A stretch of 64,000 nt of DNA from Mycetocola manganoxydans (GTDB lineage Bacteria; Actinomycetota; Actinomycetes; Actinomycetales; Microbacteriaceae), in the NCBI RefSeq assembly GCF_003667545.1, contig NZ_RCUV01000003.1:248001-312000 (forward strand), read 5' to 3'. The position numbers were made by a program, and so were the translations under genes. This document shows, in pieces, positions 18,117 through 33,210 of this stretch. Numbering within the stretch: the first letter of the stretch is position 1; each line of letters opens with the position of its first letter. The notes under the pieces are model-generated. The model worked only from the letters and a program-made list of their open reading frames with translations. It ran no database searches and had not been told where the DNA came from.

Positions 18117-19342
18117 GCGTCGACCCGATCACGCGCGGCAACCGCCGCTGAGTCCTCGGCCGGCTCGTCGTGGTCGGCGCGTTCGACCGCGCTGAGAACA
18201 TCGGCGAGAATCGCCTGTTCCGCCTCCGTCGGGCCGACGCCGTTGCGAACGTGGGCGAGGAACCCGGCAACGATCTCAGTGTCGCTCTGCCCCCGGACGC
18301 GGTCGGAGTAACTGTGGGCGGATGCATCCGTCGTGATGGCCGGGCGGTGCTCGAGGGTGACGCAGTGCGGGAAGCGGGCCTGAAGCCGCCGCATGCCGTC
18401 GAGGGGGCGCACCGTGTCTGTCAGAACCACGGAGAGCCAGTGGTTCTCGAACGGGGCGAGCGTCGCATCCGTCAGCAGGTCGTCGAGCGAACCGGTGACG
18501 ATCTTGAGAGCCCGCGGGATCGGCAGGTCGACCCAGTCAACCGACGTGAGACCCGTCGCGCCGAGCTCGACGAGCCACGCACCGCGGGGCTTCGACGCCT
18601 CGGAGAACGAGTAGTGCACAGGGGCGCCCGAATACCGCACCCGGTCGCTGAGCGCTGAGCGCCCGTGGATGTGCCCGAGAGCGACGTAGTCCGGGCCGTC
18701 GAAGACGGAGAGCGGCACGTAGTCGATGCCGCCCGCCGTGATGTCGCGCTCCACATCGCTCGCGCCGAGATCGGTCGCGTCGACACCGGCAGCAGCAACG
18801 TTCACCGCGAAGCAATGCGAAAGAACGACCGACCGGCCGCCGCGGCGGGCGATGTCGGCACGGACCCTGTCCATCACGAACGCGAGCACCTGTTCGTGGC
18901 TGCGCAACGTGGCGTCCGGGTAGTGGTGGCGGAGCATCGACGGCTCGAGGTAGGGGATGCCGTAGAAGTGCACGGGTCCGGATTCGTCGTCGAGGATGAT
19001 CGGCTGGTCGTGGAGCTCCTGCCTGGTGACGACGTGTACCCCGGCGAGGCCCGAGAACTGGGACATGAAGCCGAGCCTGGTTGCTGAGTCGTGGTTCCCG
19101 CTCGTGAGGACAACGGATGCCCCGGCCTCGCGAATCGCGACGACCGCCTCTTCGAGCACGGTGTACGCCTCTGCAGCCGGGGTGGCTGAGTCGAAGATAT
19201 CGCCGGCGACGACCACCACGTCGACCGCACGCTGCTGCACCTCGACCGCAAGCGCGGCAAGCACGGTACGCAGGTTCGCCAGGGTCGAATGACCGTGGAA
19301 CGTGCGACCGATGTGCCAGTCGGAGGTGTGCAGGATTCTCAT
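18113..19342 (-). CDS. sbcD: Exonuclease SbcD (Mre11-like nuclease)
   Basis: Mn-dependent nuclease of the SbcCD complex. 409 residues. Metallophosphoesterase motifs: MRILHTSDWHIGRTFHG (D and H ligands), VVVVAGDIFDSATP, VVLTSGNHDSATRLGF, VVLSHCFAVN and VALGHIHGRS. Capping domain after ~270. Leaderless start (TAGCGT, 6 nt, ATG) and 4-nt overlap with sbcC. Divergent from the giant-protein operon across a 268-bp region. Confidence 0.96.
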   Translation of the reverse strand: MRILHTSDWHIGRTFHGHSTLANLRTVLAALAVEVQQRAVDVVVVAGDIFDSATPAAEAYTVLEEAVVAIREAGASVVLTSGNHDSATRLGFMSQFSGLAGVHVVTRQELHDQPIILDDESGPVHFYGIPYLEPSMLRHHYPDATLRSHEQVLAFVMDRVRADIARRGGRSVVLSHCFAVNVAAAGVDATDLGASDVERDITAGGIDYVPLSVFDGPDYVALGHIHGRSALSDRVRYSGAPVHYSFSEASKPRGAWLVELGATGLTSVDWVDLPIPRALKIVTGSLDDLLTDATLAPFENHWLSVVLTDTVRPLDGMRRLQARFPHCVTLEHRPAITTDASAHSYSDRVRGQSDTEIVAGFLAHVRNGVGPTEAEQAILADVLSAVERADHDEPAEDSAAVAARDRVDA

Positions 19343-19348
19343 GTCTTC

Positions 19349-19354
19349 ACGCTA
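19349..19354 (-). promoter_or_regulatory. -10 box for leaderless sbcD
   Basis: TAGCGT, GAAGAC, ATG at 19342. Confidence 0.6.
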
Positions 19355-19430
19355 ACCCGGCCCACCGACATCCCTGCACGCGGCGTCCGACGTGTCGAAA
19401 CTCACCCCCACTCGGGGGGCGGGGACGCCC

Positions 19431-19460
19431 TTGACGCTGTGAGAATCGTGTCGCTAACGT
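19431..19460 (+). promoter_or_regulatory. Putative promoter of the giant-protein operon
   Basis: TTGACG (19431-19436), 18-nt spacer, TAACGT (19455-19460): a near-consensus housekeeping promoter. It predicts a ~140-nt leader before the ATG at 19611, containing a CCGGCC-TTC-GGCCGG hairpin at 19562-19576. An ATG at 19461 is in frame but lies where transcription would begin. Confidence 0.55.
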
Positions 19461-19610
19461 ATGGCTCAGGTTCCGTCGCATCTCTTTCCGACGCCTCTCC
19501 GCATCCCATGGCGTTCCCTCTTCTGGCGCCTTTCGCCGGTTTCCTGTGCCGCGCGAGACCACCGGCCTTCGGCCGGGTATCACGAACGTCATCGCGACGA
19601 CGGGGTCATC

Positions 19611-22600
19611 ATGACCGATATCGCAACAGGGTTCCTGCAAGCCATCGAGGCATTCCTCAACACACGCCTCGGCGATATGACGGAGGGCGCCTGGAACGAC
19701 ACAGGACCGTTTCTCGAGGCGGTCGTCACCTTCGACGGTCCGGCCACCGAGGCATCCTTCAACGAGCTCAAAGCCAACATCACCGCGATGGAGCCGATCT
19801 TCAAGGAGATCGGCGAGAAGATCAAGAAACAGACCGACCTCATCAAGAAGATGGTGACCGAGTCGGCGACCGACATCGACAAAGACGACTTCGACATCGA
19901 TGTGGCCGCCCGCGTCGCTATCCGGATCGGTATGGCGCTCGCAGCAGCAGACGAGGCATACAACATCATCGCGACCGAGCTCGCGAAGGATGCCACCGGC
20001 ACGGTCAACGAGGCGACGAGGAACGGGCTTCTGGGGTTGTGGAACCCCTGGGCGCAGCCGTTCAAGGATCTGGGGGCCGGAGCGGGCAACCTCCTCAACA
20101 AGTTCGGCGAACTCATCGGCGTGACCGACCTCGTCGGCGAGCTGGGCAACGTCATCGAGTTCGACCGCGAGGGGGGCGGATTCAAGCTACTCGCGAAGAT
20201 CGCCAAGTCCGGCCCGGTCACGCTCGGTGCCCTCACCCTCGACCAGGTCTCGTTCGAGGCGTTCCTTCAGTTCAGTGATCGGGAAGTGGCGAATCCCACC
20301 GACGCGGAGAAGACGTCTCTCGTCGAACGGGACGGAAAGTTCTACCGCGGCGACGTTGCCATCGTCGGCCTCCGCCTCCGCACGATTCTCCAGCCGGGAC
20401 TGACGAGCGATCCACTCCTCGCCAAGATCATGCCGGGCTCGGCAGAACCGAAATCCACCACTCTCACCGCGATCTCGCTCGACAGCGCGCAGGGCTTCTA
20501 CCTCGGAGACGGGCGGGGTAACGAGAAGGCGATTCTTCCCGTGCGGTTCGCGTTCCCGGGATTCGAACTACGCGAGATGGCTGTCGGCCTCGTCCGTAAT
20601 CCAGCCAGGGAGGTCACCGCGTTCGAGATCACGACCTCGATCGCAGCGACGCTCGGAGACGCGGTCGGCCTCCAGGTCGTCGGTTCGGGGTTCGTCGTCA
20701 CCCCGGAGGGCGTCGCGCAACATCAGGCGGTGTTCAATCTTCCGGTTTCACCGCGGTGGCCGGATGCCATCGGCCTGCGGGTCGCGGCAGGACCGATCAC
20801 AGGCGGCGGCTTCATTCAACGCGTCGAGCGGACATACAAGGTGGACGGCGCCGACGTGAAACGGATCGAGTTCGGTGGAGTCATCCAACTGCAGATCCTG
20901 AACTTCGGCGTTTCGGCCATCGTCATCCTCTCGCCGGATCCGTTCTCGCTCGTGCTGGTCATCGGTGTCCGTTTCCCCACCGCCATCGACCTCGGAATGG
21001 GTTTCACACTCAATGGGATCGGAGGCATCCTCGCCATCGACCGAGGCCTCTCGCTCGAAGCCCTGCGGGCCGGTATGAAGGACCACATCCTCGAGAAGAT
21101 GCTCTTCCCCGACAACCCCGTGGCCGAAGCGCCCAAACTCCTCGACAAGGTGGCGAACATCTTCCCGCCGCGAACAGGCGGCTTCGTCGTCGGCCCCATC
21201 GTCGAACTCGGCTGGGGGTCGCAGGCCAAGTTCGTCGAAATGAAGCTCGGCGTCGTGCTCGCTCTCCCCGACCCGATGGTCGTCATCCTCGGATCCCTGC
21301 GTGTTCGCGTTCCTACGAAAGAAGCCCCGATCACCGACATCAGGGCGGACGTCTTCATCGCCATCACCCCCGAGTACCTGCTTCTGTTTGCAAGCATGCG
21401 GGATTCGAAGGTGGCCGGTTTCAAGATCTCCGGAGATCTGGGACTGTACATCCAGTGGTCCGGCTCCGGGGCGTTCGAGTTCTCTATCGGTGGTTTCCAC
21501 CCCGAATTCGAGAAACTTACCGGGGAGAAACCGAAGCTCGGTGAGATGGATCGGCTGAAAATCGATCTGTCGCCGTCGAAGTCGATCAGCTTCGTCATCA
21601 CCGGATACTTCGCGATCACCGCAGGGTCGGTCCAATTGGGTGTCGACGGTCGGCTCAACGCCGATTTCGCCGTCATTGTGGTGAAAGCGTGGCTCACCCT
21701 CGACATGATCTTCATCTGGTCGCCCCGCTTCGCATTCAAGATCGCTCTCGAGCTGGGCGTCGAGGTCGAGGTGTTCGGCGTCAGCCTGTGCTCCATCACC
21801 TTCCGCGGGTCACTCGAGGGAACGCGTCCGTTCGCCCTCGCCGGTTACGTGAAGGTGGATGTGTGGTTCCTCCCGACCTTCGAGGAGGACCTCGGCCCCG
21901 TCACCTGGGGGGACGCAGAAGCATTGACAGCGCCGGCCGTCGACGCGCTCTCGGTCGCGGCCCAGGCGCTCAACGACGAAACGGCGTGGAAGGTGCCTTT
22001 GCCCGACCACGCCGCACAGCTCGTGACCCTCGCCGAGGTGGAGGACGTCGAAGGTCGAATCGCTCACCCTCTCGCCGGCCTCGAGGTCTCCCAGACGCAC
22101 GTGCCACTCGGGGTCAGAATCTCCCACATCGGTTCGTCGCCGGTCATCGCCGACATGGTCACCATGGGAACTCCCGTCTCCAGTGCGGGTGAAGCCGCCG
22201 CAATCAGCGAGATGCGCGTGCCGTTCCCTCCCGGCCACTTCTTCGATCTCGAGGGCGAAGAACTCCTCGCCAGGTCCGGTTTCGAAGAGATGCAGGGCGG
22301 ATGCCGCATCGCCGCCGCGACGACCCCGAAAGTAGGAGCGACGGCTCAGGAGAACGTCAGCTACCGCACCTACGTGCGCAATCCGGACGAGCGCCTGGTC
22401 GCTGTACCCCTCGACAGCAGCGTCACATTTGCACACTTCGGGGCCGCGTACGTTGCCGCGAGCGTTATCGGGCGGTCCACGAAAGCCTCCGGTAATCCGT
22501 ACCTCGCCAGCACCGAAGCCGACGACTCCATCGCGATCGCCGCCCAGGGGTCGTCCGTCCTGTCGGATGCCGCCACCGGCGTCGCTCTGACATCCGGGCT

Positions 22601-22694
22601 GGGCATCCTCAACGCGACAGAAGCATCAGCCATCCTCGACGCCGCGACCGCCGCAGGCATCGACACGCTCACCCGCACCCATGTGAAGGGATGA
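19611..22694 (+). CDS. DUF6603-like giant protein, first gene of a four-gene operon
   Basis: 1027 residues from ATG 19611 (MTDIATGFLQAIEAFLN), preceded by GGGGT; the in-frame ATG 50 codons earlier adds Arg/Pro-rich sequence that does not look coding. Helical N-terminus to ~130. From ~230 to 775 repeating beta segments dominate, with a DUF6603-type core at about 460-630 (MGFTLNGIGGILAIDRGLS; PPRTGGFVVGPIVELGWG; LALPDPMVVILGSLRV; FEFSIGGFHPEF). A distinct C-terminal region (~790-1027) holds LEVSQTHVPLGVRISHIG and PPGHFFDLEGEELLARSGF. No signal peptide or clear transmembrane helix. The alternating hydrophobic strands suggest an extended beta structure, possibly a groove; that is speculation. Next gene starts 4 nt later. 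Confidence 0.75.
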   Translation: MTDIATGFLQAIEAFLNTRLGDMTEGAWNDTGPFLEAVVTFDGPATEASFNELKANITAMEPIFKEIGEKIKKQTDLIKKMVTESATDIDKDDFDIDVAARVAIRIGMALAAADEAYNIIATELAKDATGTVNEATRNGLLGLWNPWAQPFKDLGAGAGNLLNKFGELIGVTDLVGELGNVIEFDREGGGFKLLAKIAKSGPVTLGALTLDQVSFEAFLQFSDREVANPTDAEKTSLVERDGKFYRGDVAIVGLRLRTILQPGLTSDPLLAKIMPGSAEPKSTTLTAISLDSAQGFYLGDGRGNEKAILPVRFAFPGFELREMAVGLVRNPAREVTAFEITTSIAATLGDAVGLQVVGSGFVVTPEGVAQHQAVFNLPVSPRWPDAIGLRVAAGPITGGGFIQRVERTYKVDGADVKRIEFGGVIQLQILNFGVSAIVILSPDPFSLVLVIGVRFPTAIDLGMGFTLNGIGGILAIDRGLSLEALRAGMKDHILEKMLFPDNPVAEAPKLLDKVANIFPPRTGGFVVGPIVELGWGSQAKFVEMKLGVVLALPDPMVVILGSLRVRVPTKEAPITDIRADVFIAITPEYLLLFASMRDSKVAGFKISGDLGLYIQWSGSGAFEFSIGGFHPEFEKLTGEKPKLGEMDRLKIDLSPSKSISFVITGYFAITAGSVQLGVDGRLNADFAVIVVKAWLTLDMIFIWSPRFAFKIALELGVEVEVFGVSLCSITFRGSLEGTRPFALAGYVKVDVWFLPTFEEDLGPVTWGDAEALTAPAVDALSVAAQALNDETAWKVPLPDHAAQLVTLAEVEDVEGRIAHPLAGLEVSQTHVPLGVRISHIGSSPVIADMVTMGTPVSSAGEAAAISEMRVPFPPGHFFDLEGEELLARSGFEEMQGGCRIAAATTPKVGATAQENVSYRTYVRNPDERLVAVPLDSSVTFAHFGAAYVAASVIGRSTKASGNPYLASTEADDSIAIAAQGSSVLSDAATGVALTSGLGILNATEASAILDAATAAGIDTLTRTHVKG

Positions 22695-22698
22695 ACCG

Positions 22699-25600
22699 AT
22701 GAGCTCACTGGACGAGATCGCAGCGCAGGTCTTCCAGCCGTTGGGCGTAAGCGCCCACAACGTCGTCAAGGACGCGTTCCGGCTGGTCGTGGCCGCCGAC
22801 GAGAAGTTCGTCGAAAGCGCGGTGGCCATCGAGCAACTGGAGTTCGCCTCCTTCGCTGTCGGCGGCCTCTCCGCAGCCGCCGAGCAACCGGCCGCAGGTA
22901 CTGTCCGCTCGGACTCCCGGGTGACGATCCCGCTCTCGGACAGCGCCGGCACTCCGGCGAGCGCTGGACTGACCGTCACACTGTTCGGCCCAGGGGATGT
23001 CAGGGGCATCGACCCTGCGCAGATCGTGCGCCGCTATCCCGCTCCGGGGACTCTCAGCGCCGAAGAGACCGTACTCGCGCACATCGAGTTCGACCGGCCG
23101 GAACTCCCCTGGTCGTTCAGCGCGGCTGCGCCCGTCGGGTCGCTCCGGCCATGGCTCACCCTCATCGTGGTCGAACAAGGCGTCGCTGAATGGGAGCCGT
23201 CGACCGGCCAGCTTCCGGTCCTCCGTGTTCCCCTCGCGGAGTTGCCTCCGCTGGCGCAGACCCATCTCCTGGCACACGCGCAGGCACCCCGAGCGACGAA
23301 CACGTCGTCACTGGCCTTGCGGTTGTCGCCCGAGTACGCCGCGGTGAACCTTTCGCGGCTGTTGTCCTCGCGCGTACTCAAACAGGACACCGACTACATC
23401 GCCGCCGTCGTCCCGACAACGGATGTCGGCGTCCGGGGCGGCCTCGGAGTGACGGGCGGAACCCTCGACCCTGCGTGGCATCCGGCGTCGGACGATCCGG
23501 TCCGTCTTCCGGTTTACGATCGCTGGGAGTTCAGGACCGGTCCGGACGGCGACTTCGCGACCCTCGCTCTTCGACTGCACGGAGTCGTTGCACCGTACGA
23601 AGTCGGCCGCCGGTTCATCGATGTCTCGGAACCCGGCCAGCCGCTTCCGCCTCTCCCCGAAGACGCAACAGGGGCGAAACAGGTGCTGCGCTGCGCGTTG
23701 TTCTCCCCCACACCGGCGCCGACCCCGGAGAAGGCGATCGCCGAGAACGCCACCTGGCCGGATCCGATGATCGATACTCTCCGCGCAGAACTCGACCGTC
23801 CCGCAGAGATCGAGGGGACGCAGGAACGTACAGGGGACGTCCCCGATCTGCCGATACTCGGGCCACACATCTACGCCAAGCTCCACAGGGGCAGCGCGGT
23901 CATCACGGGCACAGACTGGTTCGCGCAACTGAATCTCTCCCCCGTCAACCGCATCATCGCCGGCCTCGGAACCCGCGTCGTCCAGCGGGACCAGGAACAA
24001 CTCATGCAAGCCGCCTGGGCGCAGGTCGGTGAGGTGGAGAAAGCCAATCGAGCCATTCACCTCGCGCAACTGGCCGAGTTGCTCGCGACCCGGATTCACG
24101 TCCGGATCGCGAGCCTGCAACAGGGACGCCTGCTCCAGGTGGCAGGACCGCTCGCCACCCGCGTCTCGCTCACCGCCGGAACCACCCTTGCCGCGAACAT
24201 CGCGGCGAGTGCGACACCGACCGCCGCCGTCTCCGGCGCTTTCCGGCGGGTCACCCGCCCCGATGGGCCAGTCCTCCGACGAGCGGATGCCGCGTCACGG
24301 CGACGCGCCGGATCTCTCGTCGGCACCGATCAGCTCATGCGAGACTTCACCAGGATCTACTCGAATCCCGACGGAATCGGGAGAATCAGCGCCGATGCGA
24401 TCCGCATGCTGGACGCCGCCCTCGTGTCGAAGGCCATCGACGTACGTCCGGAGAAGGTCGGCACGACGCTGACAACAGCCAGCCGGGAGATGAAAGGCGG
24501 AATCGCCAGCTACCTGACGGAGCCGTCGGCATGGAAGCCTCCGCAAGCCGGATTCAGTGTCACCGATGTCATCGTTCGGCAATGGGGCGACCGGATTCTG
24601 CAGGACTCCGCGATCCCGGAACTCAAAGCCGTTCGCGCGCAACGCGTCGGCCCCCTCGCTGCCGAACTGGCGAAGGTGAAAGGAGTTCCGGGGGGAGACT
24701 TCCGGGACCGCCTCGAAGCAGAAGCCGTGAACCTCAACAACGTCATCGTCGGACTCCTCGCCACGGGGCAGGACACGAGCGTCGTCATCGATCCGGTACG
24801 GCGGGACTCGATTCTTCGTGGCACGCCGATCGGTACCGCTGTTGGCCGCGTCCCAGGAGGAGTGCGACTGCCTGCCGCCGGGACCGGACGAAAGGCCGCA
24901 GGCATCCGGGGTCTCACCGAGATTGACCCGTCGCTGCTCCAGCGTGTGACCACACGGAGCAGTCCGAAAACGCGGGACGCCGCACTCGGGAACCTCGCAA
25001 ACCTCGCCAAGGTACGGATCAGCCCGGTACTCGACCGGCTCAATGAGTTGCCGATCGACGTGCTGCGTGCCGAAATGGTGACGCTGGTCGACCCCGGAAA
25101 CCTGCTCAGCATTGACAAAGTTCCCCGTCGAAACACGCTCACCGTGAACAACCTGACGGCTCTGCTCCAGCCCGCCAGCACCATCCGGGCGGCGCTCAAC
25201 GGCCGGCTTCATCTCACCGGGGAACGGGGGCGGGCGTGGTTCGCTCGGCCGTTCATCTCGCCGATCCTTGCCGCCCCGCGCTTCGACCGTCCGATGTATC
25301 AGGCCCTCAACGACTACAGCACCGACTGGCTCGTTCCCGGTCTCGGTCTTCTCCCGGATGACGACTTCGTCACCGTCCTCTCGACCAACAGCGAATTCAT
25401 GGAGGCGTTCTTCGTCGGCCTCTCCGATGAGATGGGCCGCGAACTGCTCTGGCGGAACTATCCGACCGACCGGAGGGGCACGTACTTCCGCCGGTTCTGG
25501 GATGAGCACGACGACGAGCTCAGCCAGCAGATCCACGCTTTCACCCGTACCGAGCTGAAAAGCCACGTCACGGTCGGCGGAAGCGGCGGAAGCGGCCCCC

Positions 25601-26004
25601 GAGCCGTGATCGTCGTGAAGAGCGACCTGGTTCATCGCTACCCAGACCTCATCATCCAGGTGGCGAGGAATCAGGGCACCGTGGAGAATCCCGAGTTCGA
25701 AAAGGTGGGGTCTCCCCAGCAGACGGCGAAGCAGCTCTTTGCCGCCTACCTTGAACCGGACGTCGCCCTCATCGGTGTCGACCTCGGTCTTGACGAGATC
25801 GACCGGCCGGAGTGGTGGATCCTCATCGCCGAGCACCCCACCGCAACCCGGTTCGATCGACCCCGCGACGCGGACATGCCCCCTGGCGCGCAGTTCCTCA
25901 CCGTCCCCGCCGCTGCAGACGCCGCCCGTTACGCCAGCGCGCGGCTGCACGATCCGGTGCGGGTCGCCTTCCAAGCCACAGATCTGGTCAAGAGAGAAGC
26001 CTGA
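22699..26004 (+). CDS. Giant protein of unknown function, second gene of the operon
   Basis: 1101 residues from ATG 22699, with AAGGGATGA upstream inside the end of the previous gene. No signal peptide or membrane helix. Mixed alpha/beta; visible stretches include FDRPELPWSFSAAAP and RPWLTLIVVEQG (~125-160) and a block at ~860-935 (FDRPMYQALNDYSTDWLVPG; SNSEFMEA-like TNSEFMEAFFVGLSDEMGRE; PTDRRGTYFRRFWDE) dense in Trp, Arg and acidic residues that looks like the most constrained part. The 930-960 region holds a Gly/Ser linker (GGSGGSG). I recognise this block as recurrent in unannotated large bacterial proteins but know no assigned function. Starts 4 nt after the DUF6603-like gene. Confidence 0.75.
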   Translation: MSSLDEIAAQVFQPLGVSAHNVVKDAFRLVVAADEKFVESAVAIEQLEFASFAVGGLSAAAEQPAAGTVRSDSRVTIPLSDSAGTPASAGLTVTLFGPGDVRGIDPAQIVRRYPAPGTLSAEETVLAHIEFDRPELPWSFSAAAPVGSLRPWLTLIVVEQGVAEWEPSTGQLPVLRVPLAELPPLAQTHLLAHAQAPRATNTSSLALRLSPEYAAVNLSRLLSSRVLKQDTDYIAAVVPTTDVGVRGGLGVTGGTLDPAWHPASDDPVRLPVYDRWEFRTGPDGDFATLALRLHGVVAPYEVGRRFIDVSEPGQPLPPLPEDATGAKQVLRCALFSPTPAPTPEKAIAENATWPDPMIDTLRAELDRPAEIEGTQERTGDVPDLPILGPHIYAKLHRGSAVITGTDWFAQLNLSPVNRIIAGLGTRVVQRDQEQLMQAAWAQVGEVEKANRAIHLAQLAELLATRIHVRIASLQQGRLLQVAGPLATRVSLTAGTTLAANIAASATPTAAVSGAFRRVTRPDGPVLRRADAASRRRAGSLVGTDQLMRDFTRIYSNPDGIGRISADAIRMLDAALVSKAIDVRPEKVGTTLTTASREMKGGIASYLTEPSAWKPPQAGFSVTDVIVRQWGDRILQDSAIPELKAVRAQRVGPLAAELAKVKGVPGGDFRDRLEAEAVNLNNVIVGLLATGQDTSVVIDPVRRDSILRGTPIGTAVGRVPGGVRLPAAGTGRKAAGIRGLTEIDPSLLQRVTTRSSPKTRDAALGNLANLAKVRISPVLDRLNELPIDVLRAEMVTLVDPGNLLSIDKVPRRNTLTVNNLTALLQPASTIRAALNGRLHLTGERGRAWFARPFISPILAAPRFDRPMYQALNDYSTDWLVPGLGLLPDDDFVTVLSTNSEFMEAFFVGLSDEMGRELLWRNYPTDRRGTYFRRFWDEHDDELSQQIHAFTRTELKSHVTVGGSGGSGPRAVIVVKSDLVHRYPDLIIQVARNQGTVENPEFEKVGSPQQTAKQLFAAYLEPDVALIGVDLGLDEIDRPEWWILIAEHPTATRFDRPRDADMPPGAQFLTVPAAADAARYASARLHDPVRVAFQATDLVKREA

Positions 26005-26007
26005 GCC

Positions 26008-29000
26008 ATGCCGGTCGAGACCCCCCAAACCCTTCTCGAAGCACGCGAACGTGTCGCCAGCCTCACTGAGCGCCGGTCCCGGCTCATCGCGACTCCTGCC
26101 GGCCGTGGCCGCTGGAAGGAGATCGCAAACATCGACGCGGATATCGCGGAGCTTCTGGGCGGTATCCGGAACCGGATCGACCCCTGCGATGCGTCGCCGG
26201 ACGTCCCGCTCGTGTTACTGCCCGTGCGGGTGGAAGCCAAACTCACACCAGGCACGACGATACTGCGGGTGAGGATCACACCCGATGAGGTCCATATCGA
26301 CGGCCTGTTGCGGTCCATGACTGAGGCCGAAGGAGCGGCGGGAAGGACCTACTGGAAAACACTCTGGGAAGACCGCGATGCCCTCCAAGCATGGTCAACG
26401 CTCGTCGCAGCGGTCGGTGCACGGCGCGCCGGCTGGATCACCCAGGCCACCACCCCCACGAACGTCGACGAACGCGGCACCGGTTCACCGGTGTTCCCTG
26501 AGACCCCGGCTGAGATCGCACACGGGACCGTCGCGCGCTGCCTGCCTGACCAGTTCATCGTGCGGGTCTTTCTCTCCGGCCAGAATCCGGTGACCGCGGT
26601 CGGCAAGCCCATCGCCAGGGATGTTCCGATCTCGCCGATCGCCCTCGGGGACACGGACGTTCTCGAGACGGACAGCCTCCTCGTCCCGGCGGGCTCCGAG
26701 TGGACGGTGAACTACGAGAAAGCCAGAGACGCCGGCCTCGGTGTCGACGTCTCTCTTCCCGCCGGCACCCGGGTGCTGGATCGTATCGTCGTCGTTGGTA
26801 CGCGCCGCTCGGTTTCCGAGGAAGAGAACGCCGCTGACTTCAGCGAGTTGCTGACCAGTCATCGGTTCACCGACGGAGTGTCGCTGCTCCCGTCTGGAAC
26901 ACCCAGCAACAACGCCGAAGCAGAGCGCTCCCCGTACCGGCCCGACGCGACCGCGGGAGCGCCTCCGACGACGACGCCAGAACCCTCCGCTGACGCCCAG
27001 TCCCTGAGTGCATTGCTCGGGCTCGATCCGGTTGTTCTCGAAGGGCTCCTCGAAGCGGATGCTCCTCGGTCGTCGCTCGGATCGGCGCAGCGGGCGGCGA
27101 ACACCGCCCTGTGGTTCGCCACCTGGGAGTACGTGCTCAACCTGGTCGATGAGACCGCCATCGAGGCGGTGACCCCGGCGACAATCGAATCCGCCAGACG
27201 GCTTCACCGGGACCACGTGCGCGGCGCCGGGCACGCACCGATCGTGCGCGTCGGCGCTCAGCCGTACGGGGTACTCCCCGTCGCCGACCTCGCGAACTGG
27301 GCACCGCTCAGAGGCGAGCTCACTTCCACTCTTGTGCCGCTCGTCCAGAGGACTCTGCGCCGATGGACCGAGCGGTCAGCATCGCTTCCCCACGTGTCGC
27401 CCGGCGACAGTGTGAGCGATGAGGCACTGCTCGACATGATGGGAACGAGTCCCGTCTCCACGGCAGTCCGCGCCCGGCCGGCCGTTGACGGCCCGAAGAT
27501 CGAGACTCTGGGAGGAGCGACGGGCGCCGGGAAGGCCCAGATCTTCGCCGAACTGCAGGTGACCCGGGCGGTGCTCGCCCAGTACTCCATCGAGGCTGCG
27601 CAACGATTACTTCCGCCGTCGGTTCACGACGAGAGCCGCATGCTCGCGTTGCCGTACGTCTCCGACCGCGATGCCGAAGTGATCGAGGACATCCTCGCCG
27701 ACCGGGCGCCACAGGTCGACAGTGTTCTCCAGGCGCTGCTCGACGTGGCATGGGACGAAGCCAAAGCGTCCGGGCGCCGGGCTGCCCCTGACCCCTTCGT
27801 GTCACCCTTGCTCGAGTTCCTCGCGATCGACCCGGACGTGTCGGCTCTCGTGAAGCTCGCTCAGACGGAACGGGCCGGAGCTGCGCAGGATCCGGAAAAG
27901 GTTTTCGCGGCGGCCGAAAAAGTACGGTCGACGATTCACTTCGACGGCCAGCCAACCGGACAGGTGAGTCTCTCGTCGATCGAACCCATCGCCGAAGCGC
28001 GAACCTCGCTCGCTCAGGTCGCCCTCGATCTCGGCGATACCGTCGAAGCGCGCTGGATCGGCCAGAACGCTCTCGCGGGGCTTCTTGACGCGTTCGCTGT
28101 GCGCGGGGAAGTGGGGCAGGCGATGAGGGAACTCGGGTCGGTTCCCATCGATGAGCGACGCATCGCTGTGGCATCCGCCCTCGACATCGCCTCCCACCGG
28201 GTCGACGCCTGGGCGACCGCTCTCGCCCACTCCAGGATGAGCGCGGGGACGGGGGCGATGTCCATCGGCGCCTTCGGTTACCTCGAAGGCGTGCGCCTGG
28301 GAGCCGCGGACCGGAAAGCGGAGGGGTGGCTCCACGCTCCGAGCAGCTCTCACGCCAGCGCGGCAGGCATCCTGTCGAGCGCGCACCGATCCAACATCGG
28401 CGCCAAAGCCGGCGCGCAGCCTTTCGCCATCGAGCTGACCAGCAGGCGCGGCACTGAGTTGCGCCGCGTGCTCGAAGGCGTTCATGCCGGCCAATCGATC
28501 GGCGCTCTCCTCGGCTACCAGATTGAACGGTCCCTGACCGGATCGTCTGCGCGATTCCAGCTGAGCCTGCGCGAACTCGCTCCCCTCACGACCGATGAAC
28601 TCAACAACGACCTCGCCGAGGCCGACCGCAGTGCCCGCGTCGCCGCCGCAGATGTCGTCGACGGGGTCAGCCTGTTGAGGCAGTTCCCGCTCGAGACGCT
28701 CGGCAATGCCAACCCGCCGCTGAGAACCCGGCTGTCGACCCAGCCGAAGAATGCGTACATCGAGACCTGGGGTCCTGTCACCGACGCGGAGTGGGACGCC
28801 GTCGAAGCCGCCCTCCGCGGCGCCGCCGCAACACTCGACGCCGTGAGCGATGCGCTGCTCAGCGAATCGGTGCTCCAGTACGCGACCGGGAACGCCGCGC
28901 GTGCCTCGGCCGCCATGGATGCCATGGCGACGGGCGGTTCGGTGGACGCAGACCTCGGAGTACTCGGTGTCCGCCAGTCCGGCCAGAATCTCACCCACGG

Positions 29001-30540
29001 TCTCATCGCCGTGATACCCGACGGCGCCACCGGCTGGTCGAGCACCCGGCCACGAGCCATCGCGGAACCGCGTCTCGAAGCCTGGGCGGCACGGCGCCTG
29101 GGAGACCCGGCGAAAATCATCGTGACGGATGCCGGATCACGTCACACCCTCGCCGAATCCGGATTCGCTGCCCTCGACCTCGTCTTCGCCGACGACGTTG
29201 CCGGGCTCGACCGCGACCTGCGCTCGGCCATCCCGGCAATGGGAGATACTCCCCTCGCCGATGTGGCTGCGACGGACTGGCCGGAAGACGCGATTCCGAT
29301 CGTTCTCGCGGCCACTCTCGCCGGCACGCTCCGGACGATTGCTGCCGGCGCGGCGCCGCTCGAACCGGATGCTCTCGTGAGGCCAGGGGAGCCGACACAG
29401 CGACTCGTCGACACCGACGAACTCCTCGGCAGGTGTGACGCCCTCCTCGACGCTCTCGACGACACCGTCCGATCCGGACACGATGTGATCACCGCGATCG
29501 ACCCGGAATCCTTCACCGTCGAGGAGACCGACGTCGCTGCCGTCTCGGCCGCCGTCGCCGGACTCGCGGCGTTCGGCGTTCCGCTGGTCCCTGACCCGGC
29601 CATCCCCTCGAACGCCGGCTGGGCGTGGGGCGCATGGCATGCGGCATCCGCCCGCCTGGATTCTGCACGCGCCACGCTCGCTGACATCCGCGCCCCGCAC
29701 ACCCCGCCTCGCTCGACCGGTGAGATCCTCGATGCGGCAACCACCGTGGCCGAAGGCGTACTCGGTGACGGATTCCGCCTGATGCCACTGCTCACCCCGC
29801 CGACCGGCGCAGACGACTTCGCGGACGCCGAGGGAAACCCGCTCTTCGATCAGCCTCCCAGGTCAGCCGTGAACGCCTTCGTCAGGGACCACGCGACCGT
29901 GCGCGCCGGAGTCGCCCGCTTCGCGGAAGCGCAGCTCCTCGGCAGCGCGATCGGTCACCCCATTCCCCTCGCGGTGGTGCAGCTCACCGAACGGGAGGGT
30001 GGAACACCGGCCCCTGGCACCGAGCGATGGCTCGCCGGCGCTCTGCCTGAAGACGTGCCCTGGCCTGCCCACAGCGCCGCACACCTTGTGGTCGAACAGC
30101 TCGGCGACGATGTCAGTGGACCCGTCGCCGGGATCAGCATCGACGGCTGGATTGAAACTCTGCCGTTCCAACCGAATCCACGAGCTTTCGAGGAGGGAGC
30201 CGACCCCGCGAATCCGCTCCGCGGAGCGCGCGCGACCACCGGCCTCGCCGTGCACGCCAACCAGGCTTCGGCCCACGCACCGCAGGTGTTCCTCTCGGCG
30301 GTGTCCCCCGACGGCAAACGGTGGACGACCGACAAGGTCGTGAATGCCGTACTTGCCGCCGTCGATCTGGCGAAGGCACGGCTCGTGACCTACGAAAAGG
30401 TCCCCGGGGACGCAGCGATCCTGCCAGCGATCTACGTCAGCAGCCCGTGGTTGCAACCCCGCAAGGGTTTCTCATTCGAGGAGCTCGCGAAGGTCAAGTG
30501 GGACTCGGTGCCGTACCCGTTCCTGTCGGAGGTGAAATGA
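26008..30540 (+). CDS. Giant protein of unknown function, third gene of the operon
   Basis: 1510 residues, the largest protein in the window. N-terminus coiled-coil-like (LLEARERVASLTERRSRLIA), then VPLVLLPVRVEAKLTPG. A Pro/Thr/Glu-rich linker lies near 305-330 (TTTPEPSADAQ). The central region is Ala-rich helical. The C-terminal ~130 residues look most constrained: ISIDGWIETLPFQPNPRAFE, TTGLAVHANQASAHAPQVFL (near 1410), then VLAAVDLAKARLVTYEKVP. No Walker motif, protease triad, signal peptide or membrane helix was found. Three nt separate it from the previous gene and its TGA shares a base with the next ATG, so synthesis is coupled. A structural or scaffold role is inference from size and lack of catalytic motifs. 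Confidence 0.75.
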   Translation: MPVETPQTLLEARERVASLTERRSRLIATPAGRGRWKEIANIDADIAELLGGIRNRIDPCDASPDVPLVLLPVRVEAKLTPGTTILRVRITPDEVHIDGLLRSMTEAEGAAGRTYWKTLWEDRDALQAWSTLVAAVGARRAGWITQATTPTNVDERGTGSPVFPETPAEIAHGTVARCLPDQFIVRVFLSGQNPVTAVGKPIARDVPISPIALGDTDVLETDSLLVPAGSEWTVNYEKARDAGLGVDVSLPAGTRVLDRIVVVGTRRSVSEEENAADFSELLTSHRFTDGVSLLPSGTPSNNAEAERSPYRPDATAGAPPTTTPEPSADAQSLSALLGLDPVVLEGLLEADAPRSSLGSAQRAANTALWFATWEYVLNLVDETAIEAVTPATIESARRLHRDHVRGAGHAPIVRVGAQPYGVLPVADLANWAPLRGELTSTLVPLVQRTLRRWTERSASLPHVSPGDSVSDEALLDMMGTSPVSTAVRARPAVDGPKIETLGGATGAGKAQIFAELQVTRAVLAQYSIEAAQRLLPPSVHDESRMLALPYVSDRDAEVIEDILADRAPQVDSVLQALLDVAWDEAKASGRRAAPDPFVSPLLEFLAIDPDVSALVKLAQTERAGAAQDPEKVFAAAEKVRSTIHFDGQPTGQVSLSSIEPIAEARTSLAQVALDLGDTVEARWIGQNALAGLLDAFAVRGEVGQAMRELGSVPIDERRIAVASALDIASHRVDAWATALAHSRMSAGTGAMSIGAFGYLEGVRLGAADRKAEGWLHAPSSSHASAAGILSSAHRSNIGAKAGAQPFAIELTSRRGTELRRVLEGVHAGQSIGALLGYQIERSLTGSSARFQLSLRELAPLTTDELNNDLAEADRSARVAAADVVDGVSLLRQFPLETLGNANPPLRTRLSTQPKNAYIETWGPVTDAEWDAVEAALRGAAATLDAVSDALLSESVLQYATGNAARASAAMDAMATGGSVDADLGVLGVRQSGQNLTHGLIAVIPDGATGWSSTRPRAIAEPRLEAWAARRLGDPAKIIVTDAGSRHTLAESGFAALDLVFADDVAGLDRDLRSAIPAMGDTPLADVAATDWPEDAIPIVLAATLAGTLRTIAAGAAPLEPDALVRPGEPTQRLVDTDELLGRCDALLDALDDTVRSGHDVITAIDPESFTVEETDVAAVSAAVAGLAAFGVPLVPDPAIPSNAGWAWGAWHAASARLDSARATLADIRAPHTPPRSTGEILDAATTVAEGVLGDGFRLMPLLTPPTGADDFADAEGNPLFDQPPRSAVNAFVRDHATVRAGVARFAEAQLLGSAIGHPIPLAVVQLTEREGGTPAPGTERWLAGALPEDVPWPAHSAAHLVVEQLGDDVSGPVAGISIDGWIETLPFQPNPRAFEEGADPANPLRGARATTGLAVHANQASAHAPQVFLSAVSPDGKRWTTDKVVNAVLAAVDLAKARLVTYEKVPGDAAILPAIYVSSPWLQPRKGFSFEELAKVKWDSVPYPFLSEVK

Positions 30541-32369
30541 TGGCGAAGATCGATCCTCTCGTTCTGACCTACACGGAGGTCAATCCGAAGCTCCAGGCGA
30601 TTGCCGAGTTGTTGCAGGTGGCTGACCCTCCAGGGATGGTTCGGCTCGAACCGGACTCGACCACGGGCAATCCCGTTCCCGGTGCAGAAGCGCGTCTCGC
30701 AGATCCGGCCTGGATGCTCGGCAGACAGTGGCAATTCGGGGAACTGACCGGTGAGGATGCCGGCTCCGTCGTCGCCGTGACCGTGGCATCCCGGGCCTTG
30801 CCCATCACGGCATGGGCCCCGCTGGATGACGATACGGTGAGTCTCGCGGGAGTCGACTGGCGCCCCTGGCGCAACGGGGCACTTCTCGAGGAACTCGTGC
30901 AGGATGTCCCCCAGCTCGCTTTCGGCTCCGGGCTCAGGCAACGTGCCGAAGCAGGAGCGCAACTCGTCGACCTGCTGAGCGATGCGGGGGAAGGGAAGCT
31001 CGCCGGTACGCTCGCGAGCCGCTATCCCCTCGCACTCGAACCCGACCCGGAATCGCCGGAAGAACCGGTGCCGGGCGAGACCGACGAGGAGCGAGCGGCG
31101 CGCCTCGCCCGGGTGGCGGCGCGCGACGCGCTCGATCCGCAGGCACGCCGCCTGCTTCGCGTGCTCGGAGGCTCGGTCCCGGACGGAAAGGCGCTGCTCG
31201 CTGACGTCGGTTCGGGACAGCCGGCCTGGCTGGCGGATGCGACGGATACGGATGCCGCGTCGGCGGCGCTGTCTGCCTGGCGCGTCTGGCTCACGGGCGA
31301 CGCCGATTCGGGCGGGGCGTGGTCGACCGAACGACTCGAGTACCGGTTCGCGCTGCGGTTCGGCGACGACGAGAACGCCGTTTTCGCGCGCGGAACGCAG
31401 TTCGGTTCGTCCGAAGTTCGATGGAGCGATCTCCAGTGGGTCGACCGGGCTCGAGGGGACCTGCCGGCCGGGGCACCGGCAGGAACACCGGTCCAGACGT
31501 CAGCAACAATGCTCGCGACGCCATTGCGGTACCCGGGCATGCCGGCAGACCGCTACTGGCAACTGGAGGATGGCGCGGTGGACCTCGGTGCGATCGAGGC
31601 GCAACCGACGGATCTGGCGCGACTCTGCCTCGCCGAGTTCGCGATGTCGTCGGGAGACGACTGGCTGAACGTTCCTGTGGACGGCCTGCTCGGCGCGATC
31701 AACCAGATCACGTCGGTGGAGTTGACCGACGATTTCGGCGACACGGTCGCGGTCGAGGAACTCGCCGACCCCGCATTCACCATGTTTCGCGTGTCAACGG
31801 CATCCGGTCGTCCGCTGCCGGGCATCGTGCTGCCACCGACGGCATCCGGGACCCTCGTCGGCGAGCCGGTCGAAGAGGTGCTCTTCCTTCGCGATGAGAT
31901 GGCGAACATGGCGTGGGCGATCGAGATCACCGTGCAGGGCCGGAGCGGCGACGCTCGGTCGCGGTCAGGCGAACCGCAACCGGAGGCCGACCCCTGGCCG
32001 GAGGGCCTCAGCCCTGAGGAGCGGGTCTACCGGCTCCAGAGCGCCGTGCCCGCGCACTGGCTCCCGCTCGTTCCGATCTCCGCGCAGCCCGGACAGCTCG
32101 GCCTGAGGAAGGGCGCCTTGCTGCGTGACGGAGACCCGGTCCTCGCGCAGGGCGTCACGTTGAGCCCCACTCCCCTCACCTTCCCCGGCGAGGAACTCCC
32201 ACGAGAGGGGGTGCACCTTCGGGCGGTTCCCGTCCTCGCGCGCCGGGCAGACGGCACCTATGTGAAGTGGGCCGCCTACCGGGTGCGGACGGGGCGAGGA
32301 GAAGCTGCGAGCAAGCTCGCCTGGGATGCCGCCTTGTCGGTCGCCGACATGCGGCCGGCGGAATCCTGA
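30540..32369 (+). CDS. Unknown protein, fourth gene of the operon
   Basis: 609 residues. ATG 30540 is preferred over ATG 30537 because GGAGG at 30528-30532 is then 7 nt away. Distinctive features: LADPAWMLGRQWQFGELTGE near 55, DDWLNVPVDGLLGAINQITS and a mid-C-terminal block FLRDEMANMAWAIEITVQG near 450, both unusually Trp-rich; ends RTGRGEAASKLAWDAALSV. An acidic/Pro linker sits near 165-185. No signal peptide, membrane helix or catalytic motif recognised. Last gene of the operon: 100 nt later the next gene has its own leaderless promoter. Confidence 0.75.
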   Translation: MAKIDPLVLTYTEVNPKLQAIAELLQVADPPGMVRLEPDSTTGNPVPGAEARLADPAWMLGRQWQFGELTGEDAGSVVAVTVASRALPITAWAPLDDDTVSLAGVDWRPWRNGALLEELVQDVPQLAFGSGLRQRAEAGAQLVDLLSDAGEGKLAGTLASRYPLALEPDPESPEEPVPGETDEERAARLARVAARDALDPQARRLLRVLGGSVPDGKALLADVGSGQPAWLADATDTDAASAALSAWRVWLTGDADSGGAWSTERLEYRFALRFGDDENAVFARGTQFGSSEVRWSDLQWVDRARGDLPAGAPAGTPVQTSATMLATPLRYPGMPADRYWQLEDGAVDLGAIEAQPTDLARLCLAEFAMSSGDDWLNVPVDGLLGAINQITSVELTDDFGDTVAVEELADPAFTMFRVSTASGRPLPGIVLPPTASGTLVGEPVEEVLFLRDEMANMAWAIEITVQGRSGDARSRSGEPQPEADPWPEGLSPEERVYRLQSAVPAHWLPLVPISAQPGQLGLRKGALLRDGDPVLAQGVTLSPTPLTFPGEELPREGVHLRAVPVLARRADGTYVKWAAYRVRTGRGEAASKLAWDAALSVADMRPAES

Positions 32370-32457
32370 TCGACCGTCCCTGGCCGCATCCGTTTCATTT
32401 CTGCGGTCGAGAAATCAAGCCCCCGACCGGAACCCGCGCCCGGCGGAAACGCTCCTT

Positions 32458-32463
32458 TAGCCT
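32458..32463 (+). promoter_or_regulatory. -10 box for leaderless gene at 32470
   Basis: TAGCCT, TGGCCC, ATG. Confidence 0.6.
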
Positions 32464-32469
32464 TGGCCC

Positions 32470-33210
32470 ATGACTGCAACGGAACTTTGGCTGGTGAGGC
32501 ACGGAGAGTCGACGGCGAACATCGCCGCGACCCAGGCGCAGGCGGCGGGGCTCGATGTCATCGCCGTCGAAGCGCGAGACGCCGACGTGCCGTTGTCACA
32601 GACAGGAGTCCTCCAGGCCGAGGCCCTCGGAGCGTGGCTCGCGGCGAACGCCGGCGGCAGCGTTCCCGCGGCGATCTGGAGTTCGCCGTATTTGCGAGCG
32701 CAGCAGACGATCGCGATCGCCCTGGAGACCAGCGGACTGGACCGGGCATTCCTCGTCGACGAACGGCTCCGGGACCGCGAACTCGGCGTCCTCGACACCC
32801 TGACGTCGACGGGGGTCGACCGGAGGTACCCGGATGAGGCCGCCCGCCGCCGCTGGCTCGGCAAGTTCTATTACCGCCCGCCGGGAGGGGAAGCATGGAC
32901 GGATGTCGCGCTGCGCATCCGTTCCTTCCTTCGCGACATCGACTCGGGGGATGCCCCCGGCCCCGTTCTCGTCGCGGCACACGACGCCGTCGTTCTCGTC
33001 TTTCTCTATCTGTGCCTCGGCTGGTCTGAGCAGGAACTGCTCGCTTTCGCCTCAACCAACACGGTGCTCAACGCATCGGTCACCAGGCTGACCCGGGAAC
33101 CAGGCGACCGGTTCTGGACGCTGGAAGTGTTCTCCCATGACGACCACCTCCAGGCGGTCGGCGCCCCGGTCACCGAACACGGAGGAGATACCGATGTCCA
33201 GCCTCACTGA
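32470..33210 (+). CDS. Histidine phosphatase family protein
   Basis: 246 residues. Catalytic LVRHGES (R10, H11), SSPYLRAQQTIAIAL with the second arginine, RDRELG with the acidic residue and VAAHDAVVLVF with the second histidine: the phosphoglycerate-mutase/SixA superfamily. The substrate could be a small phosphoester or phosphoprotein. Its 3' end overlaps nnrD by 17 nt, so the two are co-translated. A link to metabolite repair is possible but not shown. Confidence 0.9.
   Translation: MTATELWLVRHGESTANIAATQAQAAGLDVIAVEARDADVPLSQTGVLQAEALGAWLAANAGGSVPAAIWSSPYLRAQQTIAIALETSGLDRAFLVDERLRDRELGVLDTLTSTGVDRRYPDEAARRRWLGKFYYRPPGGEAWTDVALRIRSFLRDIDSGDAPGPVLVAAHDAVVLVFLYLCLGWSEQELLAFASTNTVLNASVTRLTREPGDRFWTLEVFSHDDHLQAVGAPVTEHGGDTDVQPH

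Follow-up and report, generated by a model that had tools for sequence, protein, structure and literature searches.

A DUF6603-led operon of four large proteins, found in one gene order in bacteria and haloarchaea, occupies a site that is empty in four of five congeners of Mycetocola manganoxydans

Three large protein families that match no database entry were found to move together with one DUF protein, in bacteria and archaea alike, and in Mycetocola manganoxydans the four genes that encode them (P1 to P4) occupy a chromosomal junction that is empty in four of five congeners. The explanation that we favour, and to which we give an even chance, is that of a mobile cassette encoding one large multi-subunit complex, with a linked hydrolase as payload where one is present and a likely role in conflict. 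The genes lie on the + strand between sbcD and a histidine-phosphatase gene, in a window of 64,000 nt (the whole stretch of DNA that was analysed), with the following features:

18113..19342, - strand: sbcD, the native left neighbour, which occupies the site in 5/5 congeners
19396..32412, no strand: DNA without counterpart at the congeners' sbcD/histidine-phosphatase junction (congener alignment)
19611..22694, + strand: P1, DUF6603 protein of 1027 aa (ORF from 19461; Pfam)
22699..26004, + strand: P2, 1101 aa, no known family (ORF; Pfam, NCBIfam, PHROG and PADLOC profiles)
26008..30540, + strand: P3, 1510 aa, no known family (ORF; Pfam, NCBIfam, PHROG and PADLOC profiles)
30540..32369, + strand: P4, 609 aa, no known family, consensus DPLWxLxRQWQxGEFxGEDAGSPV (ORF; alignment)
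32470..33210, + strand: histidine-phosphatase gene, the native right neighbour, present in 5/5 congeners

An earlier, sequence-only reading had described an operon of four genes of these sizes separated by 4, 3 and -1 nt, and both the coordinates and the gaps were confirmed. The gaps are unchanged in all six relatives in which they were measured (L002 and L004-L008); L003, from Cryobacterium sp. MP_M3, was excluded from this measurement because its P3 (L003:16533-21066) reads in two overlapping frames, reflecting either a broken gene or a sequencing error. The ATG at 19611, which gives the 1027-aa P1, stands at the equal place in 7/7 relatives, and the in-frame ATG upstream of it at 19461 (ORF 19461-22694) is not a conserved start. 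Nei-Gojobori dN/dS values ranged from 0.07 to 0.31 in all 12 comparisons (four genes in three pairs, of which the window-L004 pair is less reliable, with a dS of 0.8-1.3), and purifying selection is acting on all four genes. Additionally, the Trp/Arg-rich blocks that had been pointed out in P2, P3 and P4 are all three present and indeed constrained, with residues that are invariant in 19/19 sequences of each family: F933 and W934 in P2, P1425 and L1429 in P3, and D55, R62, Q63, W64 and E68 in P4.

The assignment of a DUF6603 core to P1 was borne out by Pfam, as P1 matches PF20248 at E 1.7e-90 (304 bits vs a cut-off of 27) over 494 of the 502 profile positions, and the same profile is matched by 23/23 aligned P1 members at E 0.01 or better. 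Hydrophobicity analysis indicated helical periodicity in the first ~180 aa of P1, followed by a core with beta-type alternation. In the core (residues 320-760 of the window's P1 and the aligned columns of 22 further members), the hydrophobicity autocorrelation is negative at lag 1 and positive at lag 2 in 23/23 members, although its size is modest (0.07-0.21). For the whole of P1, the share of strong beta-moment windows was 0.184 vs 0.105 +- 0.020 in shuffles, the corresponding values for the SbcC control being 0.188 and 0.165. A far longer DUF6603 protein of 3233 aa, with an N-terminal extension of ~2100 aa without Pfam match, is encoded at L022:3592-13293.

At E 1, neither Pfam nor NCBIfam nor PADLOC contains a match to P2, P3 or P4 of the window, and the best E value of these proteins against PHROGs was 0.17 or worse, in agreement with the earlier view that they represent three families without recognised homology. 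When the profiles of the three were compared with one another (P2/P3, P4/P3 and P4/P2), the probability was <1% in each case, and therefore no common origin was detected. The P2 family is conserved over the N-terminal ~540 aa and the C-terminal ~200 aa, with a variable middle. Pfam identified a lamin tail domain in 4/19 P4 members, FG-GAP in 1/19 P2 members and, among P3 members, a decapeptide repeat region and two weak matches (1/19 each); furthermore, the record annotations of two haloarchaeal P3 carry a 'BGTF surface domain', which Pfam at E 0.01 does not reproduce. Such accessory domains appear to be the only additions made by the P2-P4 members of other lineages.

Solved structures were searched with the four family profiles, built from 19-23 divergent members, and with P1 as a single sequence. 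The best E value was 0.12 for the P4 profile and 0.13 for the single-sequence P1 search, and the P2 profile returned no match; a designed helical bundle for the helical N-terminus of P1 (E 0.0037) and mL68 for P3 (E 0.0058) were taken as chance matches. AlphaFold2 models, each based on the window protein and seven relatives, reached a mean pLDDT of 38 (P1) and 44 (P4), and both are too poor to build on, although long hairpin strands are visible in that of P1. The Foldseek matches of the P1 model, with ushers and other outer-membrane barrels on top, were discounted as evidence because of this pLDDT and because all had E values above 0.001 (TM-score about 0.15). The sequence-only reading was correct in finding no signal peptide, in that there is no hydrophobic window near the N-termini of the window's four proteins and no signal-like N-terminus was seen by eye in 80 core sequences (some of whose starts are mechanical first starts). 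Its companion claim, that membrane helices are absent, rests on context, since a simple Kyte-Doolittle scan identified internal 19-residue windows exceeding the hydropathy threshold, one starting at residue 432 of P1 (mean 1.85) and one at residue 1176 of P3 (mean 2.15). Internal hydrophobic windows are also found in some P1, P2 and P3 members, and one P4 (L039) has three near its C-terminus.

The junction that holds the operon was compared with that of five congeners. In four of these (L084-L087) the site is empty, with 125-170 bp from sbcD to the phosphatase gene vs 13,127 bp in the window. Homology to the congeners breaks off at 19371-19395 (left) and begins again at 32413-32469 (right), the exact limits varying by congener, and the extra DNA is therefore hardly more than the operon itself. 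PF20248 was over the cut-off in 4 of 299 genomes of the host's family, host included (two of the four being judged the same contigs as L002 and L004), with a fifth genome under the cut-off, and was absent from the 5 other genomes of the host genus in the sample. The operon had been presumed long resident; the empty site in four of five congeners, together with this rarity in the family, indicates that it is not. A gain in this host is the more economical account, with repeated loss in five congeners being possible but less so. In the fifth congener (L088, genome G541), 2,882 bp lie between sbcD and the phosphatase gene, and this same junction holds a different ORF of 862 aa (L088:2365-4953, + strand) with a metallopeptidase-like motif read by eye (HELGHLLGLDH), a His/Glu repeat tract and a weak aegerolysin match (E 0.0018, under cut-off). 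The sbcD/phosphatase junction may be an insertion hot spot.

No integrase was recognised among the window neighbours scanned, and because no direct or inverted repeat longer than 7 nt was found at the insertion ends, no insertion mechanism is proposed. The GC content of the operon equals that of its surroundings (66.5% for both), and its 4-mer deviation was 0.136 vs 0.064-0.128 in 17 sliding 13-kb stretches, measured against a reference that excluded the operon and thereby favours this outcome. None of eight window neighbours lies beside the operon in L002-L008 except for a 31% MFS match in L002, in a comparison that is mainly of the upstream side as these loci end a few hundred bases after P4. 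Phylogenetic analysis placed Rhizobium as sister to the window's clade, which is of Microbacteriaceae type, with a support of 1.000 in the P1 tree and 0.954 in the P4 tree. For Paraburkholderia, the partner was Nocardia in two trees, the concatenated one (0.999) and that of P1 (0.835), and L024, inside the same three-member group, in the P4 tree (0.833). The positions of Rhizobium and Paraburkholderia therefore favour transfer between phyla.

Two further features had been read from the letters of the operon and its upstream region. The proposed near-consensus promoter, TTGACG-18-TAACGT, is literally present upstream, but it could not be upheld as such: its second hexamer matches TATAAT at 3/6 positions, a scan for promoter-like sites in 19343-32470 returned 0 (0.7 in shuffles), and the region upstream of the operon is not conserved. 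The host heptamer CGGATGC does occur inside the operon as had been observed (at 20761, 27056 and 29126, among others), but the long residence deduced from it did not hold, and at 16 copies in the operon's 13.1 kb vs 85 in the remaining 50.9 kb the heptamer is slightly sparser inside than in the rest of the window.

A scan of the genome collection with P1, which reaches close relatives only, identified seven loci in Leifsonia, Cryobacterium, Arthrobacter and Microbacterium, and in 7/7 the four genes are all present and in order, with 58-73% identity per aligned segment. A tblastn search of PLSDB (72,556 plasmid records) retrieved P4 in 14 records and P1 in 14, the genera being Streptomyces, Nocardia, Embleya, Rhizobium, Paraburkholderia, Gemmatirosa and four haloarchaeal genera. 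Among 27 further loci (L020-L046), for which the profiles used in counting were iterated on these same loci, 17 hold P1-P2-P3-P4 in order within the stretch, and this order is seen in Actinomycetota, Alpha- and Betaproteobacteria, Gemmatimonadota and haloarchaea. The 17 comprise Rhizobium (L031, with P2 and P3 split), Paraburkholderia (L041), Gemmatirosa (L037), Streptomyces (L034, L035 and L040), Nocardia (L042), haloarchaea (L032, L033, L039, L045 and L046), other Actinomycetota (L024, L025, L029 and L028, the last with P3 and P4 fused) and a fecal record (L036, with only the end of P1); Halobellus and Natrinema have two loci each. L038 holds fragments of P1, P2 and P3, and L021, L023, L026 and L027 hold P1 and P2 followed by the contig end. 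The anticipated co-localisation of the four families was thus found across phyla and domains, at 17/27 loci and in 7/7 close relatives, but not everywhere: L020, L022, L030 and L044 have P1 and a weak P2, with P3 and P4 absent from the stretch, and one locus has P4 alone. This orphan P4 (L043:19299-21104) is located on a plasmid of Streptomyces anthocyanicus, with IS5 transposase genes a few kb away, and the profiles used detected no P1-P3 in its 41-kb stretch. In two haloarchaea, a ~900-aa family abuts P1 (L033:16065-18812 and L039:16109-18814, 33% identical, the L033 copy being without a Pfam match) and is a possible further component.

In 396 Actinomycetota genomes, P1 was found in 12, P2 in 10 (all inside the P1 set) and P3 in 8 (all within the 10 of P2). 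The chance that 10 P2 genomes would all fall among 12 P1 genomes is 2.8e-18 under an assumption of independence, which genomes do not satisfy. The P4 profile matched 39 of the 396 genomes, 29 of which were dropped by reading the match table as they matched only at positions 617-731, the lamin-tail extension of haloarchaeal P4; core P4 was found in 10, eight of these belonging to the 12-genome P1 set. The two outside it, G308 and G269, are both multi-contig, and the G308 match starts at base 138 of a 4.9-kb contig. The four proteins have diverged in parallel: for the 14 loci whose four proteins are all aligned, the distance matrices correlate at r 0.87-0.94, a range that falls to 0.66-0.82 when two close relatives are removed and 12 loci remain. 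Co-inheritance in one operon can by itself produce such correlated distances.

Outside the window's subfamily, a hydrolase gene was identified in or next to the operon in a raw count of 10/27 loci. These genes encode an M64 peptidase with HExxH (L024 by Pfam and L023 by BLAST and motif, both of the same genus), a PhoD-like phosphoesterase (L032 over the cut-off, L025 under it and L035 by BLAST to L032), a trypsin-like protein (L041 over the cut-off; L037 under it and one gene away), an S8 subtilase (L042) or a metallo-beta-lactamase fold (L044 over the cut-off, L020 under it), the catalytic motifs, those of S8 and trypsin-like proteins included, being read by eye. A WD40 protein is present instead of a hydrolase in L028 and L034. 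Hydrolase and core genes overlap by 1-4 nt in L023, L024, L032 and L042, and the neighbour gene in L034 likewise overlaps the core by 1-4 nt. No hydrolase or WD40 protein was recognised in 15/27 loci, at least five of which (L021, L026, L027, L036 and L043) have incomplete or unexamined neighbours; the record annotations within the operons of L031 and L040 bear no hydrolase label and list pentapeptide and hypothetical proteins only. As regards the window's subfamily, no hydrolase was found among the ten neighbours scanned beside the window's operon, and the upstream 10 kb of L002-L008, assessed by position, contain no same-strand ORF abutting P1 in a pattern common to all seven.

On the explanation that we favour, tight gene coupling would set the ratios of the subunits, P1 would supply a long amphipathic beta-meander, perhaps as the lining of a channel or the binding site of a hydrophobic ligand, and P2, P3 and P4 would form the remainder of the body of the complex. 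In other lineages, the operon-linked hydrolase (a peptidase, a PhoD-like phosphoesterase or a protein of the metallo-beta-lactamase fold) would represent its active payload. As no hydrolase adjoins the operon in the DNA seen of the window's subfamily, this subfamily would have to act by its own surface or through a partner encoded elsewhere. The patchy, swapped pattern would point away from housekeeping and towards conflict, either with other organisms or with mobile elements. The set, its order, its co-inheritance, the selection acting on it and the empty sites are observed; we infer the physical complex, the hydrolase payload and the conflict role. The incomplete sets in L020, L022, L030 and L044 and the lone P4 on a plasmid argue against a single complex. 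A fuller proposition is offered tentatively, as less likely than not, namely that the operon encodes an undescribed mobile machine of bacteria and archaea, in which a four-protein giant scaffold around an amphipathic beta-meander subunit would carry interchangeable hydrolases and serve in conflict, between cells or against mobile elements, without an NTPase or a phage-derived part.

Domains such as lamin tail, FG-GAP, BGTF and PG-binding are usual in exported proteins, and their occurrence here (the lamin tails of P4, the FG-GAP of P2, the annotated BGTF of two haloarchaeal P3 and a PG-binding domain in a neighbour) would be explained by a cell-surface or matrix structure, in which giant adhesive or S-layer-like proteins are co-exported and the hydrolases act on outside substrates. 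We consider such a structure unlikely, however, given that none of the 80 core sequences displays a signal-like N-terminus by eye, that no export gene is present among the ten window neighbours scanned and that Pfam fails to recover the BGTF domain. The amphipathic beta-type alternation of the DUF6603 core could also suit a metabolic or lipid-handling complex, with P1 as a hydrophobic groove or barrel for lipids and the hydrolases processing the cargo, and PhoD-like and metallo-beta-lactamase-fold partners could conceivably act on lipid or phosphodiester substrates. Yet the M64, S8 and trypsin-like peptidase partners misfit a lipid pathway and the outer-membrane barrel matches, derived from a model of such low pLDDT, carry no weight, which renders this reading quite improbable.

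An intracellular anti-phage defence module, whose core would sense infection with the hydrolase as effector, is credited with a low probability comparable to that of the surface structure. PMC7159879 names a calcineurin-type phosphoesterase as the commonest effector in one class of conflict systems and a trypsin domain in another, and the patchy occurrence, horizontal spread and differing hydrolases of the operon would accord with such use; against this, none of the four window proteins matched a PADLOC-DB 2.0.0 family at E 1 (0 families), by Pfam the core lacks NTPase, nuclease and sensor domains, and the ten scanned neighbours (a scan made without PADLOC) resemble ordinary chromosomal genes and not a defence island. 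Descent from a phage or a contractile injection particle, by degeneration or domestication, was considered in view of the large structural-looking proteins and the tight operon, and since 1 of 50,697 phage records ('Bacteriophage sp.') matches P2 and holds the P1 end, P3 and P4 as well. This record (L036, MT835531.1, fecal) continues with STAND/BTAD, periplasmic-binding and dehydrogenase genes, however, and because of these it resembles a mislabelled fragment of a bacterial chromosome. A phage origin is nearly excluded, since all PHROG matches have E values of 0.17 or worse, P1-P4 match no sheath, tube, baseplate or ATPase family, and a search of 2.9 million viral contigs (with few P3/P4 patterns and thus with limited reach) retrieved no P3 and a single short fragment of P4.

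If the mobile cassette indeed encodes one machine, this would be a complex type that is absent from the catalogues searched and whose structure, of about 4,200 residues, is uncharted, and the swaps of linked hydrolases would offer a natural handle for testing its role; the empty-site congeners allow a direct comparison of presence and absence. In the open-access papers searched (subscription papers and preprints being outside the scope), none was found to mention DUF6603 or PF20248, and none, judged by title and opening of the abstract, describes the operon. P1 matches nearly the whole DUF6603 profile over the curated cut-off, but that family is a single domain of unknown function, and the output for its entry is silent on P2-P3-P4 partners. 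The NTP-dependent conflict systems (MoxR-vWA ternary and GTPase-centric), as set out in PMC7159879, share with the operon a conserved core and an actinobacterial presence, and their interchangeable effector-type domains may have a counterpart in the differing hydrolases at 10/27 loci, with none seen in the window's subfamily; however, the MoxR, vWA, GTPase or other NTPase of those systems is absent from P1-P4 by Pfam, in the window and in divergent members. Streptomyces umbrella toxin particles (PMC11062931) resemble the proposed complex in that actinobacterial genes encode a large multi-protein particle with a trypsin-like component. The UmbC protein is there described as having a Tat signal, ALF repeats and toxin domains, whereas P1-P4 display no signal-like N-terminus and P2-P4 have no Pfam match (ALF repeats being covered by the Pfam scan only). 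Similarly, contractile injection systems and phage tails share the presence of large structural-looking proteins in one operon, but no sheath, tube, baseplate, AAA+, ATPase or capsid match was obtained for P1-P4. The nearest functional analogues, the conflict systems and the umbrella particles, fail on defining features, and the four-gene operon, whose function is putative, appears to be new as a system.
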